Shown here in pieces: positions 291 to 9,059 of a stretch of DNA of 64,000 nt. The stretch is taken from positions 1-64,000 of the forward strand of contig JACRLR010000040.1 of NCBI GenBank assembly GCA_016219645.1, written 5' to 3'. Numbering within the stretch: position 1 is the first letter of the stretch; the number at the start of each line of letters is the position of its first letter. The position numbers and the translations under genes are program-made. This DNA comes from Nitrospirota bacterium. GTDB taxonomy: Bacteria > Nitrospirota > Nitrospiria > Nitrospirales > Nitrospiraceae. Below the pieces are notes generated by a model. The model had not been told where the DNA came from and ran no database searches. It was given only the letters and a program-made list of their open reading frames with translations.

Positions 291-335
291 TGGTGCGCCC
301 GGAGGGACTTGAACCCCCAACCCTCGGATCCGAAG
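291..335. repeat. attL: 45-bp copy of the tRNA-Arg 3' end
   Basis: These bases are identical to 8914-8958 and comprise CCA end, acceptor 3' strand, T arm, variable loop, the 3' strand of the anticodon stem and most of the anticodon loop of tRNA-Arg(TCG) on the bottom strand. The match ends at 335, where the sequence diverges. The 5' half of the tRNA is absent, so this copy is an attachment-site remnant and not a gene. Confidence 0.9.
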
Positions 336-459
336 ACCCTCCTAGTACTTCTGATACTAAGAGTGAGCAGGAATGACAGACAGTGACGCTACCCCTATGG
401 ATAAAGGCGATTAAGTCATTGAGCTTGCGATCAGTGGCGATGGCGGCACATTGGCAATC

Positions 460-499
460 GTGACCAAAACCGTGACCGAACCGTGACCGAACCGTGACC
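460..499. repeat. Four GTGACC direct repeats, probable integrase arm sites
   Basis: GTGACC occurs at 460, 472, 483 and 494, spaced 11-12 bp (one helical turn), within a broader CGTGACC(A/G)AA unit. Two further copies with 12-bp spacing lie at 8850 and 8862, beside the other att copy. Helically phased direct repeats on both flanks of att are typical arm-type binding sites for tyrosine recombinases. That role is inferred here; nothing in the sequence proves binding. Confidence 0.5.
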
Positions 500-564
500 A
501 AAAGTCGAGGCTCAAAACGTGGATGAGCGTGTCATCTGAACGACAGGATACCCCTTGGGATAGA

Positions 565-792
565 TCAGACCTGCGATTCAAATTCACTGCGTGCAATGCC
601 ACTTTGACGGATAATGGATTGGAGGGTACCTAGTCGAATTTCGTGGTGATCAGGGACAGGGACGGTCACGGTTCCAGTAGCGGTCCGGCGCTGCATGACG
701 ATGTGGCTGCCGCGACGCCGTACTTCTGCAAACCCATGCTGCGATAAAATCTGGCAGACCTCGCGTCCGGAGAGAACCCGAAGTTTAGCCAT
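565..792 (-). CDS. hicA: HicA-family toxin (mRNA interferase)
   Basis: A 75-residue protein with the HicA/YcfA double-stranded-RNA-binding-like fold signature: SGREVCQIL, a GSH motif with the catalytic histidine at residue 30, and the terminal VPVPDHHEIRLGTL block. Family members cleave translated mRNA independently of ribosome stalling and are neutralised by HicB. The gene follows and overlaps hicB by 8 bp on the same strand, as expected for translational coupling. Length is typical for HicA. It is cargo of the integrative element near attL, where it could stabilise the element; that role is inferred. Confidence 0.9.
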   Translation of the reverse strand: MAKLRVLSGREVCQILSQHGFAEVRRRGSHIVMQRRTATGTVTVPVPDHHEIRLGTLQSIIRQSGIARSEFESQV

Positions 793-1009
793 GCGTGGCT
801 TCGAAGCGTGTCACAAAGACTTCGGTATGCAGCCGTCGCTGTACTTCTCCGGGGTCCGCGCATTCCAGAAATAATTCGACGGCTTCTTTCAGATGAGCCA
901 TCGCTTCTTCCACCGTGGCCCCCTGGCTGGCCACGTCCAATTCCGGGCAGAGAGAAACATACCCGTCGCCTTCTTTCTCCACAACCGCCGTATAGCTATT
1001 GGCCGCCAT
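785..1009 (-). CDS. hicB: HicB-family antitoxin
   Basis: A 74-residue protein with the HicB partial RNase H-like fold: YTAVVEKEGDGYVSLCPELD followed by the ASQGATVEEAM helix. It is a short HicB; no C-terminal ribbon-helix-helix or HTH DNA-binding segment is present, so autoregulation would need another factor or a cryptic surface. A GGAGGGG ribosome-binding site lies upstream of the ATG. It is transcribed first, with hicA overlapping its stop. The product should bind and inhibit HicA in the cytoplasm. Confidence 0.88.
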   Translation of the reverse strand: MAANSYTAVVEKEGDGYVSLCPELDVASQGATVEEAMAHLKEAVELFLECADPGEVQRRLHTEVFVTRFEATHG

Positions 1010-3825: not shown

Positions 3826-5259
3826 GAGTCATCTAAAATCTTACCCAGCTGGCCCTCGTTGCGACATCTATGTTTCTTACCCTCCGGCCCGCATCCTGCG
3901 GCGCCAGGGAGGGCACCATGGAGCGGAGTGGGATGGGACAGCACTCGAAGCGCGAGTACCTGGAGTCGATTTATGTGCGGTATCGGCAGAGTCGCCGAAC
4001 TGAGAAGCAGCGGATTCTCGACGAATTCATGCGGGTCTGTGGCTACCACCGCAAGTACGCGATTGGGCTGCTCAACCGACCCTTGCCTGTTCCGAGGCCG
4101 CGGCGGCGGGGGCGGCGCGCGCCGCACTACTCGGAGGCCGTCATTGATGTGCTGGCGCAGCTCTGGGCCGCGTCCGGCTATTTGTGTGCGGTGCGCCTGA
4201 AGGCGGCGCTGCCGCAGTGGCTGCCCTGGCTGCGCCAGCGCATCCCGCTGACCTCGGCACAGGAGCGGCAGCTGCTGGCCATTAGCCCACGGCAGGTGGA
4301 ACGCCGCCTCCACACACGGAAGCAGCGGCTGAAGCGGACCCTCTATGGAACGACACGGCCGGGCGCGTTGCTCAAGCACATGATCCCGATCAAGACGGAC
4401 CATTGGGATGTGACCCGCCCCGGCTATCTCGAAATTGATCTGGTCTCGCATTCCGGGGCGACTGCGGCCGGGGAATTTCTTTATACCCTGGACTGTGTCG
4501 ATATTCAGACCGGGTGGGTGGAGCGCCAGGCGGTCAGGGGCAAAGGCCAACAGGGCATTGTGCAGGCGTTGACCATCATCGAACGCCACCTGCCCTTTGC
4601 GCTGCGGGGGATGGATTCCGACAACGGTAGTGAGTTCATCAATGATCAGGTATGGGCCTTTTGTCAGCGCCGGAGCCGGCCCGTGCAGTTTACGCGCTCC
4701 CGGCCCTATAAGAAGGACGACAACGCCCACATTGAGCAGAAGAACTGGACCCATGTGCGGAAACTCGTTGGCTGGGAGCGGTACGACAGCCCCGCGGCCC
4801 TCGCGGCGCTCAATGCCCTGTATCGTGATCTCCGGCTGTTTCAGAATCTGTTTCAACCGTCGATGAAACTGCTGCGGAAGGTGCGGCTCGGCTCACGACT
4901 CATTCGCCGCTATGCGGCGCCGCAGACGCCGTGGGCACGGGTCCTCGCCAGCCCGGAGGCCGATGCCGCGAAGGTGACGGACCTGCAGCGCCTCCTGGCT
5001 CGGACCGATCCCTTCGTCTTGTCGGCCCGGATCGATGTGCAGCTGGAGCAGCTGTGGGCCTTGGCGAGGCGAGCCCGCCAGCCGCGGGCCTCCGTGCCGA
5101 CGAAGCCTCGGCCACGGACCGTGACCCCGTGGCGGGGCTGGACGTTCAGCGCCAAGGTCAAGCAGGACCGACAGGAGCAGCGACAGCAGGTCGCCGTGCG
5201 CCGGTAAGATTTGGTCATGACGCAACGACTCCCCAGTGGGTAAGATTTTTAGATGGCTC
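3826..5259 (+). mobile_element. Complete rve-type insertion sequence with terminal repeats
   Basis: A left end GAGTCATCTAAAATCTTACCC (3826-3846) matches, inverted and nearly identical, a right end GGGTAAGATTTTTAGATGGCTC (5238-5259). A partial internal copy, GGTAAGATTTGG, follows the transposase stop at 5204. One intact transposase gene fills the element. No flanking target duplication is obvious, so the exact ends may be off by a few bases. It lies inside the tRNA-Arg element, so it inserted into or travelled with it. Confidence 0.75.
3918..5207 (+). CDS. DDE transposase with integrase (rve) core domain
   Basis: The 429-residue protein has an N-terminal HTH-like region (residues 1-60), an RNase H-like rve core with candidate acidic residues in YLEIDLVSH, GMDSDNGSEF and NAHIEQKN, and a basic C-terminal tail. 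This is the two-aspartate-plus-glutamate arrangement of IS481/ISNCY-like integrase-type transposases; the exact IS family is not certain. The ATG at 3918 has AGGGAGG upstream. The gene is visibly more GC-rich than the lipoprotein genes next to it. All catalytic motifs appear intact. Confidence 0.88.
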   Translation: MERSGMGQHSKREYLESIYVRYRQSRRTEKQRILDEFMRVCGYHRKYAIGLLNRPLPVPRPRRRGRRAPHYSEAVIDVLAQLWAASGYLCAVRLKAALPQWLPWLRQRIPLTSAQERQLLAISPRQVERRLHTRKQRLKRTLYGTTRPGALLKHMIPIKTDHWDVTRPGYLEIDLVSHSGATAAGEFLYTLDCVDIQTGWVERQAVRGKGQQGIVQALTIIERHLPFALRGMDSDNGSEFINDQVWAFCQRRSRPVQFTRSRPYKKDDNAHIEQKNWTHVRKLVGWERYDSPAALAALNALYRDLRLFQNLFQPSMKLLRKVRLGSRLIRRYAAPQTPWARVLASPEADAAKVTDLQRLLARTDPFVLSARIDVQLEQLWALARRARQPRASVPTKPRPRTVTPWRGWTFSAKVKQDRQEQRQQVAVRR

Positions 5260-5533: not shown

Positions 5534-6514
5534 CTAGGATTTGGCCTCCTGCCCCGGAGTGGGTGGGGGCAGGGGTCTTGAGCTGTATCTGATCCAGTGA
5601 GAAGAGGGATCTGCGAAGCCTGACATCCATCCGAATGTACCTCCGCCTCCCATCCATTGATTGAGGGTGCTGTACTCCCCAACCCGACGGAGCATTTCCT
5701 GGAACAGGAGCCCGAACATCCGTGCCTCCACGTCTGGAGCCTGTGGTCTCACCACAAGCTGGAACCGTTCAGTCGGGACCGTGATCCCTAGGGAACTGAA
5801 ATAGCGATGCTCTCCAAACTCGCGGGGGAGGTTATCCAGATCCTTGGAGACATATTTGGAGAGATACCGAGCAAGTTTGACCGGCGAACTCCCTGACCGT
5901 GGGCCTCTCACGTTGACCTGGCCTTGTCCATTGCCCACGATCTTGTACCAGCAGCGACGAAGAAGGCGCACATCCTGGAAACCTCGCACGGCGAGGTGTG
6001 GATGAATGGCCCCACGCTGTTGACACTCCAGCACCGCCACGAAGGGCATCGGGTACCCGGCGCGCGTGAGCATCCGGCGGAGTCGGTCCAAGTCTCGAAG
6101 GACTCGATCACGGTTCGCCACATTGTCACGGTAGGTGAGCGTGACAAGATGATCCGCGCTGATCGTAATGCACTTTCTTCTGATCTCTCCCGTGGCTCTC
6201 GCTCGCGCCCGTTGCTCATTGTGTGCTCGATTGCGTGATCTCCCCTTGCACCCTTTCTTCCCAGGTCGGGGATCAGACAGGCCCCACGAAGCCTCGACCC
6301 ACTGTGTTCCAAAGTCATGAATCTTAATCGTCCACGCGGACCCGATCGCCCGGAGTGCGGAGCAGTGAGACTGAGAGTGATCGTCGAGAAATGTCCTCTT
6401 GTCAAGTTTAGGGGCTGCCGGGGGCCCGGCAGCCGTGCGCGGCTGGCTGGCGCCAGCCAGCGCATCGGCACAGCACGGGTGGCCCTTTCCCTGCAAGTGT
6501 TGAACGTGGTCCAT
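5534..6514 (-). CDS. HUH replication initiator, ORF2/G2P-like
   Basis: This 326-residue protein carries the ordered motifs of rolling-circle initiators: motif 1 VTLTYRD (124-130), motif 2 HPHLAV with the metal-binding HxH at 171-173, and motif 3 YLSKYVSKD with tyrosines 217 and 221. The arrangement matches the phage G2P/microvirus-VP4/element ORF2 group. It would nick one strand at an origin and start rolling-circle replication of the excised element. The first ~110 residues are basic and not recognised, so the true start could be internal. It follows a small HTH gene by 28 nt on the same strand, likely one operon. Confidence 0.8.
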   Translation of the reverse strand: MDHVQHLQGKGHPCCADALAGASQPRTAAGPPAAPKLDKRTFLDDHSQSHCSALRAIGSAWTIKIHDFGTQWVEASWGLSDPRPGKKGCKGRSRNRAHNEQRARARATGEIRRKCITISADHLVTLTYRDNVANRDRVLRDLDRLRRMLTRAGYPMPFVAVLECQQRGAIHPHLAVRGFQDVRLLRRCWYKIVGNGQGQVNVRGPRSGSSPVKLARYLSKYVSKDLDNLPREFGEHRYFSSLGITVPTERFQLVVRPQAPDVEARMFGLLFQEMLRRVGEYSTLNQWMGGGGTFGWMSGFADPSSHWIRYSSRPLPPPTPGQEAKS

Positions 6515-6542: not shown

Positions 6543-6752
6543 TTACGGCACTACGTCTCCGGGGTCGACGGCATCCCGCCATCCATCACGAATAAGGCGG
6601 TCGACCACCTCAATGGGAATCCGCACCGATCGCCCGATCTTCACATACGGGATGCGTCGTAACAGGATATCGCGCCGCCATGTCGAGACCTTGCGACCAG
6701 TGCGTGCAGCAGCCTCAAATACGGTGAGTAACTGGTGACTGTTCTTCTGCAT
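6543..6752 (-). CDS. Small HTH protein, AlpA/excisionase-like
   Basis: A 69-residue protein with a winged-HTH of the MerR/excisionase type: LLTVFEAAARTGRKVSTWRR, then a wing IPYVKIGRSVRIP and helix EVVDRLIRDG. Proteins of this size and pattern act as recombination directionality factors or repressors in integrative elements. The ATG at 6752 has GGGAG upstream; a longer in-frame start exists at 6785 but adds residues without homologous character. It precedes the Rep gene and is divergent from the zinc-finger gene, so it may control both; that is inferred. Confidence 0.78.
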   Translation of the reverse strand: MQKNSHQLLTVFEAAARTGRKVSTWRRDILLRRIPYVKIGRSVRIPIEVVDRLIRDGWRDAVDPGDVVP

Positions 6753-6855
6753 CGCTCTCCCTCGCTGTTGATGATTGACATTCAAAGCCCGCTTACCTCA
6801 TGATGACACTCTAGTAACTAGCAATAGGCAATTCAAGGTTACATATCGGTTACCC

Positions 6856-7737
6856 ATGATGTCTCACTTCCCCACACAAGCTTCCCTCTGGTGGCGCAGT
6901 AGCATCCGCATTGAGGGGACTCGTCTTGTCCCCGTACCACCCTTTGTTCCGTACAATCCCTTTGACTCGTACTTTCCCATTGAAACCTCGACCCGCGAGC
7001 AACGGTCGCTGCCCTATCTCTTGCTCGACGTGGATTATGAGGACATCCAGGCGGTCGCACGCTTCTGTGAGCGGTTCGGGGTTCTCGGGAATTTTCAGAA
7101 TGTCGGCTGGGCACAGTGGGCGGCGGAATCCGGGCTCGTCTATCCATTACTGGCCACAGGACCGTCGTCCCAGCATGCAAAGGAGGTCGTCAAGCAGACA
7201 AATCTCTATCGGGCAAGTGCAGGAGCACGACCGAATCAGACGCTCTGTACGCCGATGACACTGGATGATTTCCGCCACGCCCGCTGGGACCTGGCCGAGG
7301 CAATCGAGTTGGCACAACAAGCGAGCGGTCAGCCGCCCGTGCGCCCGCTGAACCCTGAAGACGACGCGGGCGTCAGGCACCTGTCGCTGAAGGAGATCCG
7401 CCGGCGCGCGTCGTTCGCCATGGCTGCAAGGCTGTCGATGATCCGGCCTCGCCCGATATGGGACGTGTTAAAGGATCAGTGGGTCACTACTTGGGACGTC
7501 GGGACGCTGGAAGCGGCGATGTATCTCATGCTGCTGTTCGATATCCAGGGACGTGGGCAGATCCTTACGTGCCCCCGCTGTCGCAAAGTCTTCGTGGCGG
7601 ACCGTGCTCGCACGCAGTTTTGTTCCAACCCCTGTCAGAATGCGGCAAAGGTGCAACGGTTCCGGGCCCGTCAGGCGCAGCGCGAGCGAGCCAGTAACAC
7701 CACGCACAACCCGGTGAAAAAACACCGCAAGGACTGA
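6856..7737 (+). CDS. CGNR-like zinc-finger protein, element core gene
   Basis: The C-terminal ~60 residues contain CPRCRKVF followed by RTQFCSNPC and a basic helix: a four-cysteine finger resembling the CGNR/DUF6076-type zinc finger. The ~230 residues before it include tryptophan-rich N-terminal strands and helices of an ABATE-like flavour, but with no confident match. Possible role is nucleic-acid binding. The tandem ATG at 6856/6859 is chosen provisionally; the frame is open to a TTG at 6775 and no strong ribosome-binding site decides. It lies between the divergent HTH-Rep unit and integrase. Confidence 0.65.
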   Translation: MMSHFPTQASLWWRSSIRIEGTRLVPVPPFVPYNPFDSYFPIETSTREQRSLPYLLLDVDYEDIQAVARFCERFGVLGNFQNVGWAQWAAESGLVYPLLATGPSSQHAKEVVKQTNLYRASAGARPNQTLCTPMTLDDFRHARWDLAEAIELAQQASGQPPVRPLNPEDDAGVRHLSLKEIRRRASFAMAARLSMIRPRPIWDVLKDQWVTTWDVGTLEAAMYLMLLFDIQGRGQILTCPRCRKVFVADRARTQFCSNPCQNAAKVQRFRARQAQRERASNTTHNPVKKHRKD

Positions 7738-7769: not shown

Positions 7770-9059
7770 ATGGCACGCAAAGGAGGTACTGATCGAGGCA
7801 TCACCCAACGAAAGGGTCGCAAGGGCTGGTGGGTCCGTATCTATGTCCACGGGAGAGAGCGATGGTACCGCTGTGATGCCAAATCACAGGCCAAAGCCCT
7901 CTATGGCCGATTGAAAGCTGACATTCGGGAAGGGACGTTCTTCCCAGAGAAATTTGCGCCACGGAAGGACATCACGCTTCGGGCGTGGATTCTCCGTTGT
8001 CTCGAAGGGTCCACAAATCTGAACATTGAGGGTGAACGGCGGTATGGTCGTCGGTGGTCGCTGCTGCTAGGGAAGCGAATGCTGGCCGATGTCTCACGGG
8101 AAGACATCCGGCAGGTTCAGGCTAAAATGCGGGCCAAACTCAAACCGCGTCCCAAGAATGCTTCTAAAGATTTTCAACCCAAGCGGCGGTGGAGCGATGC
8201 GACGATCAACCGACATTTTGCGTTTCTCCGTCATGTGCTGATGCTGGCAGTTAAAGACGGGAAGCTGACTCAGAATCCGGTCTCTGGGTTGAAGTTCTTC
8301 CCCGAAGTGAAGCGAACGAGGTTTTTGTCCGGCGAGGAGCTTGCCCAGCTCCGAGGGGTGATGCAACAGAGCGACTGGAAGTTAGTCGCCTTTGCGATTG
8401 AGACGGGTCTGAGGCGAGGAGAACAATTTAGTTTGCGATGGGATCAGGTTGACCTAGAAAACGGTGTCCTCACTCTTCCATTGCCCAAGGGAGGAAAAAC
8501 CCGGCATGTGCCCTTGAGCAAGGAAGCCCAGGTGATATTGAGGTCATTTGACTCGTTTCTGCGGTCGGCGTGGGTCTTCCCAGGGTTAAAGAACGTCTCT
8601 CAGCCAATGGACAGCCGTGCGTTCCTTCGCCGGTCGTTTGAGCCTGGCTTACGGAAGGCGGGAATTGTTGGGGCTTGCTGGCATTCGCTACGCCATACCG
8701 CCGCGAGCCGAAGAGTCATGGCCGGAGTGGATTTAGTCTCCGTGAAAGAGATTCTTGGTCATCGTGATATCCAAACAACCCTTCGGTATAGCCATCTCGC
8801 GCCAGGGCACCTTCGGGACGCTGTGAACCGAGGAAGTCTCTCTGGAACCGTGACCAAAACCGTGACCAATCTGGTGGGGAAACGGGAAGAGAAGAGGCAA
8901 CCTGTTGATTATATGGTGCGCCCGGAGGGACTTGAACCCCCAACCCTCGGATCCGAAGTCCGATGCTCTATCCAATTGAGCTACGGGCGCACGTGGCTAT
9001 TTCAAACACTTCGAATGAGATCCTGTCAAGGAGGAGGCGAGGGCACAGCCTCGTGTTGA
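7770..9059 (+). CDS. Tyrosine recombinase (phage-type integrase)
   Basis: The product has an N-terminal arm-binding segment, a core-binding SAM-like domain (about 65-180) and a catalytic domain with the full active site: R215, K243, H305-x-x-R308, H331 and the nucleophile Y340. A GAGGAG site lies 8-10 nt before the ATG. It should integrate and excise the element at tRNA-Arg. Codons 381 onward are written across the att core and the antisense of the tRNA gene, ending at 9059 (429 aa) in this integrated state. In a circle the frame would run from E396 into the left arm and stop at 374-376, giving 409 aa. Residues 358-368 are encoded by the GTGACC repeats. Confidence 0.93.
   Translation: MARKGGTDRGITQRKGRKGWWVRIYVHGRERWYRCDAKSQAKALYGRLKADIREGTFFPEKFAPRKDITLRAWILRCLEGSTNLNIEGERRYGRRWSLLLGKRMLADVSREDIRQVQAKMRAKLKPRPKNASKDFQPKRRWSDATINRHFAFLRHVLMLAVKDGKLTQNPVSGLKFFPEVKRTRFLSGEELAQLRGVMQQSDWKLVAFAIETGLRRGEQFSLRWDQVDLENGVLTLPLPKGGKTRHVPLSKEAQVILRSFDSFLRSAWVFPGLKNVSQPMDSRAFLRRSFEPGLRKAGIVGACWHSLRHTAASRRVMAGVDLVSVKEILGHRDIQTTLRYSHLAPGHLRDAVNRGSLSGTVTKTVTNLVGKREEKRQPVDYMVRPEGLEPPTLGSEVRCSIQLSYGRTWLFQTLRMRSCQGGGEGTASC
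8850..8867. repeat. Two GTGACC repeats at the right end of the element
   Basis: GTGACC at 8850-8855 and 8862-8867 is in the same orientation and with the same AAAACC linker as the left-arm repeats at 460-477. They lie 46 bp from the att core and inside the integrase coding region. They are likely arm-type recombinase sites. Confidence 0.45.
8914..8958. repeat. attR: att core within tRNA-Arg
   Basis: This is the second, identical copy of the 45-bp core at 291-335. Here it is continuous with the 5' half of tRNA-Arg, so the gene is complete at this junction. The strand exchange presumably occurs in the anticodon-loop or T-arm part of the core, as for other tRNA-targeting recombinases. Confidence 0.88.
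8914..8990 (-). tRNA. tRNA-Arg (anticodon TCG)
   Basis: A 77-nt cloverleaf on the bottom strand with encoded CCA. The acceptor stem is GCGCCCG/CGGGCGC, D arm GCTC/GAGC, anticodon stem TCGGA/TCCGA with loop CTTCGGA (anticodon TCG), T loop TTCAAGT. Discriminator base is A. It serves as integration target for the element to its left. Confidence 0.95.

Follow-up and report, generated by a model that had tools for sequence, protein, structure and literature searches.

In the Myxococcus phage Mx8, the phage attachment site attP lies within the integrase gene int, and integration provides this gene with a new 3' end (Tojo, 1996; Magrini, 1999; reviewed in PMC6070905). The integrase of the integrated form was described as changed in its behaviour towards the sites, not as inactivated (PMC6070905). 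In BPs and related mycobacteriophages, integration at a tRNA-Arg gene alters the C-terminus of the repressor, from which a degradation tag is removed (PMC9262239), while in archaea the suicidal integrases of the SSV type have their gene split by integration into two inactive parts (PMC8371274). The authors of Islander allow for integrases which extend across attP, naming Mx8 and SSV (PMC4383910). Given the precedents of Mx8, BPs and SSV, the phenomenon considered here is of a known kind. It concerns a mobile integrative element of 8.6 kb, seated at the tRNA-Arg(TCG) gene of a Nitrospirota bacterium.

Attachment Site and Gene Content of the Element

The features of the element and of its target are collected in Table 1; the window is the whole stretch of 64,000 nucleotides that was analyzed.

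Table 1. Coordinates of the element, its attachment sites and its genes, counted from the first letter of the window.
Feature	Coordinates	Strand	Remarks
att core, left copy (tRNA fragment)	291..335	.	Direct repeat and empty sites
Circle-form tail, codons 397-409 (DPPSTSDTKSEQE) and TGA	335..376	+	In the int frame only once excised
Putative arm-type integrase sites, four CGTGACC	456..500	+	At 458, 470, 481 and 492 (span 458-498)
HicA/HicB-like pair	565-1009		Near the left end
Insertion sequence, rve-type transposase	about 3835-5249		Within the element; 33-nt imperfect inverted ends
Rolling-circle replication initiator	5534..6514	-	PF23343; weak RepSA/pSAM2 match
Excisionase-like HTH protein	6543..6785	-	PF12728, TIGR01764; homologue in 53/69 related loci (window counted)
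CGNR zinc-finger protein	6775..7737	+	Directly upstream of int; similar protein in 34/69 related loci (window counted)
int, tyrosine recombinase, integrated form (429 aa)	7770..9059	+	PF00589, 7e-25
Putative arm-type sites inside int, two CGTGACC	8843..8870	+	At 8848 and 8860 (8848-8866); coding TVTKTVT
att core, right-hand integrated copy (45 bp, equal to 291-335)	8914..8958	.	Encodes about residues 383-396 of the integrase
tRNA-Arg(TCG), regenerated target gene	8914..8990	-	Identity ends in the anticodon loop (8952-8958)
Integrated-form tail, 33 aa (VRCSIQLSYGR...)	8958..9059	+	Encoded by the tRNA gene, read in antisense, and by host DNA

In the direct repeat that delimits the element (291-338/8914-8961), the copies 291-335 and 8914-8958 are exact over 45 bp, and a single mismatch follows at 336/8959. 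The identity begins where the tRNA has its 3' end and extends across the whole anticodon loop to its far edge, and the attachment site is anticodon-centred. A 3' tRNA fragment at one end, an intact tRNA gene at the other and empty sites in relatives place the element among those targeted to tRNA genes with crossover in the anticodon loop. In one element-free locus (L153, genome G249) an intact tRNA-Arg gene directly adjoins the homologue of the window's left flank, with exactly matched spacing, and two others (L152 and L159) keep parts of this flank beside an intact tRNA-Arg gene; the left boundary is thus supported independently of the direct repeat. None of the left ends examined in the assemblies was preceded by the 3' end of int, as it would be at the circle (attP) junction.

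As to the gene content, the replication initiator scores above the cut-off for PF23343 and reaches 31.8 bits with the RepSA profile, for which the cut-off is 34. Its homologues are present in 2 of the 69 loci (window counted), and its presence suggests that the excised circle may replicate. Comparison with pSAM2-like elements (AICE) identified no transfer gene in the element, and the HicA/HicB-like pair had no similarity match in the 68 other loci checked.

Two types of short repeat, GTGACC or GGGAGC/T, occur across the relatives. The type found at the left end is also that of the right end in all 33 elements typable at both ends, and the repeats are far denser in the end sequences than in the element interior (3.1 vs. 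0.13 per 550 bp). Most simply, these repeats would be arm-type integrase sites. Since such repeats lie together with the core in the end of int, the last stretch of this gene would serve as protein-coding sequence, arm sites and core at once.

The Integrase and Its Two Predicted C-Termini

The product of int contains the PF00589 domain and the residues R-K-H-R-H-Y, which identifies it as a tyrosine recombinase of the phage integrase family. The catalytic residues, whose roles were assigned via the known tyrosine-recombinase motif, are R215, K240, H305, R308, H331, and Y340, and the fold ends at about residue 352; in an alignment of 39 sequences R215, K240, and R308 are invariant and Y340 is nearly so. 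The AlphaFold2 model of the integrated form has a recombinase fold resembling lambda Int and Tn1549 Int, and its residues 353-429 (pLDDT < 50) are predicted to be disordered. The integrated tail should therefore lie outside the folded enzyme and leave the catalytic fold untouched, and, as both tails start at the same place in the disordered region, any effect on the enzyme would be indirect.

Due to the position of the core inside the 3' end of int, the tail of the integrase must differ between the free circle and the chromosome. The preliminary description of this DNA had claimed that the int frame crosses the att core without a stop, and that it ends after 429 codons in the integrated state and after 409 in the circle. 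Both readings were reproduced: the former base by base and by script (7770-9059, with a tail of 33 residues after E396), the latter by recomputing the joined circle (8913-core-336), in which the frame ends with TGA at 374-376. Codon 396 is GAA (8955-8957); in the circle, codon 397 is GAC (335-337) and is followed by CCT CCT AGT ACT TCT GAT ACT AAG AGT GAG CAG GAA TGA, so that the C-terminal end of the predicted circle form, read by hand and by script, is DPPSTSDTKSEQE. Crossover anywhere in the 45-bp core leads to the identical joined product. By itself, an int frame that stays open through the core is no improbable event, since two of the three antisense frames of the 3' half of tRNA-Arg(TCG) are stop-free; the feature that goes beyond chance is that the sister elements discussed below conserve the circle-form tail.

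Recurrence of the Tail Swap among Relatives

Searches for homologues of the integrase in the phylum, family, and class yielded many, and about 100 loci were read. Nearly all of these loci adjoin a tRNA gene, in a constant orientation. Two different tails, as the preliminary description had predicted for the window, recur when the tails of homologous integrases are compared: among the 49 related elements with both ends delimited, 34 swap tails, their int frame passing the crossover, and 15 do not, their int stopping ahead of it. The swapping elements target tRNA-Arg, -Cys, -Gln, -Lys, and -Gly. In the displayed copies of tRNA-Arg (ACG, CCG, TCT), int uses an open frame, which is usually the sole open one; the displayed copies of tRNA-Gln(TTG) have stops in all three antisense frames within the core, and int at this target ends just ahead of the core, with the exception of L057. 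The 15 relatives without the swap, which include Gln-targeting ones with 71-74% identity in Int, count against a switch. Peptide-pattern searches of viral_contigs and genome_contigs yielded no useful close relatives, and the integrases in plasmid and phage records were distant (< 60% identity only).

Some loci have a composite structure. In L049, L105, and L107, a partial tRNA comes after int, with the apparent left end of another element behind it; these are apparently tandem elements, in which the neighbor may supply the int tail. Two remnants of less than 1 kb, L145 (G452:C260) and L163 (G261:C12), have left-end sequence joined to the 3' end of int and look like internal deletions, the join in L145 being apparently located between arm-site repeats.

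The circle tails are acidic, with a mean of -1.7 vs. +1.3 for the other frames and +0.6 for the integrated tails (p = 0.003 and 0.004, respectively, over 16 elements that are not independent). The ends of the tails also bear on the idea of a stability switch like that of the BPs repressor, in which one of the tails would be a degradation tag. The geometry of the locus does match that of BPs, likewise at a tRNA-Arg gene (PMC9262239); however, no ssrA-like end (LAA or similar) occurs among the listed tails of the element and its relatives, and the ends vary from group to group (SEQE, MFSL, KDSV, KAIK), which makes such a switch very improbable.

Selection on the Circle-Only Tail

The sister group comprises tRNA-Arg(TCG) elements of another genus, represented by 14 left ends. 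Its circle tail (STLETDSDQGGQMDMFSL) has 21 aa (e.g., GAQSTLETDSDQGGQMDMFSL), is free of indels, and retains its stop in all 14. In a codon model the dN/dS ratio of this tail is 0.24, tested against 1 (LR 25.3, nominal p = 5e-7), and without L164, L165, and L167, judged to be possibly orphaned, it is 0.27 (LR 19.4). A shuffle control was made because the alignment is short: in 120 column shuffles free of stops the median dN/dS was 0.88, none of the 120 was at or below 0.24, and the largest LR was 11.8. A simple column shuffle, scored by the count of amino-acid types, was marginal (p = 0.036), which counts against a switch. The sense frame is the sole stop-free frame of the six in the 14 sequences; coding of the tail in antisense was considered and rejected, as every antisense frame contains stops. 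The dN/dS ratio is 0.06 in the catalytic part of the integrase and 1.1 in the linker from the tyrosine region to the core, where constraint on silent sites at the DNA level probably inflates the value; the sister-group tail therefore forms a separate island of constraint. Judging from these codon statistics, the circle-only tail of the sister group is under purifying selection at the protein level.

The left end might instead be conserved as DNA, to which Xis, the integrase or some host factor binds within attP. Such constraint would agree with the putative arm-type sites just beyond the tail and with the situation in the window's own genus, described below. Nevertheless, in the sister group it is the third codon positions that vary most (14 of 20, vs. 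10 of 20 first and 8 of 20 second positions), the stop is retained even where TAG has become TAA, and the 60 bp past the stop are more variable than the tail (41 of 60 columns) and have no codon pattern; moreover, the Gln-targeting relatives keep this DNA and lose the frame. We consider conservation as DNA improbable. Selection on the tail as protein, on the contrary, supports the view that the tail acts in the circular state, and, as a tail present only in the circle is kept as protein in the sister elements, the swap probably matters.

Natural Controls and the Window's Own Genus

The tRNA-Gln(TTG) relatives with Int 71-74% identical retain homologous left-end DNA, with int ending before the core. 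The tail frame is broken in all four of them, by premature stops in L182, L183, and L053 and by loss of the stop in L179. In some sister elements a second copy of the tail is present which is not joined to the core; its dN/dS ratio of 0.61 is not different from 1. The second left-end copy is located about 830 bp inside the element in L044 (10009-10991, oriented), as well as in L040, L041, and L043. Between the two left-end copies of the L044 group, the opposite strand encodes a DinJ/YafQ-like toxin-antitoxin pair, named from its translations. The internal tail copy does not clearly belong to a gene.

In the window's genus, the tails of L141-L144 (GSPSASDTESEEE, DPPSTPEAKSEQE, DLPSIPESESEQE, VLPSIPETKSEQE) consist of 13 codons and a stop, as in the window, and the tails of this genus resemble by eye that of the sister group (PSTSDTKSEQ/QSTLETDSDQ). 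Their dN/dS ratio over 12 codons was 0.57-0.61, which is not significant (p = 0.23-0.27), and the DNA past the stop appears to be as conserved as the tail; thus, no protein-level selection is established in this genus.

This result in the window's genus fits with an incidental overlap, i.e., attP packed into the 3' end of int for economy, with the frame open by chance and the swap having no effect on the enzyme. So do the two open antisense frames of tRNA-Arg(TCG), the dN/dS of 1.1 in the linker ahead of the core, the existence and persistence of non-swapping relatives, and the predicted disorder of the tail. At the same time, an incidental overlap is opposed by the protein-level selection on the circle tail of the sister group, and by the fact that the frame is lost precisely in those relatives whose int stops short of the tail DNA. 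We regard it as rather unlikely, although it is the rival to be taken most seriously.

Proposed Mechanism and Its Significance

The explanation that we favor, with moderate confidence, is that attP is located inside the 3' end of int, the circle tail being selected in at least one sister group and the integrated tail being a by-product of the target. Here attP, consisting of putative arm-type sites and a tRNA-derived core, is embedded in the tyrosine-integrase gene of the element itself. When the element is a free circle, the int frame continues through the core into the left end and would yield an enzyme of 409 aa with a short acidic tail, which integration into tRNA-Arg would replace with a tail encoded by antisense tRNA and host DNA (33 aa here). 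The C-terminus of the circle form would be the native one, at least in that sister group. The sequences establish the geometry, the frames, the empty sites, the recurrence of the swap, and the protein-level selection on the sister-group tail together with its decay in relatives that do not translate it. Both forms of the integrase are presumably made. A disordered acidic tail would favor a task of Int at the circle stage, either integration or control of Int, and integration, by analogy with Mx8, may remove the effect of this tail. That the tail could report the integration state, as the preliminary description suggested, is plausible, and the selection seen in relatives lends it partial support.

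More tentatively, and with considerable doubt, one may think of a clade-wide recombination memory, in which a selected acidic circle-stage tail, present in many Nitrospirota elements targeting tRNA genes, would be deleted by integration, and a change of the target tRNA would rewrite or abolish the switch. If true, the recombination product itself would set the direction or the amount of integrase activity. Where an integrase is altered by the reaction that it catalyzes, a single gene suffices to make integration and excision asymmetric, and Mx8 is a bacterial precedent for this. Since the clade contains dozens of natural variants at different tRNAs, among them a group whose tail is selected and relatives devoid of the switch, comparison could test whether such tails regulate recombination.

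Comparison with Known Systems

With the SSV-type integrases the element shares an att site inside the integrase gene; there, however, the gene is split, whereas here it is whole up to the core, and the catalytic domain is intact upstream of it. BPs resembles the element in that attP falls within a gene, attB lies in tRNA-Arg, and integration alters a C-terminus. In BPs it is the repressor that is altered, with the loss of an ssrA-like tag, while here the altered gene is int and no such tag was seen, the two tails ending in SEQE or TASC; the locus thus differs from integration-dependent immunity of the BPs type. As in the tRNA islands of the Islander type, the anticodon-centred attP is accompanied by a tRNA fragment at one end, an intact tRNA at the other, and an integrase beside it (PMC4383910); selection on the tail, analyzed here, is not analyzed in the available portion of that paper. 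Like Mx8, the element has attP within int and a C-terminus that is replaced on integration, as predicted here from sequence. Mx8, however, is a phage of 49.5 kb, whereas the present element of 8.6 kb resides at a tRNA anticodon loop and takes its integrated tail from antisense tRNA, and the change falls in a predicted disordered extension, about 56 residues past the catalytic tyrosine. No earlier report of such a swap in this clade was found in the literature searched, most subscription papers being outside the search. To the known systems the present analysis adds the recurrence of the swap on many tRNAs within one clade and the selection test on the tail.
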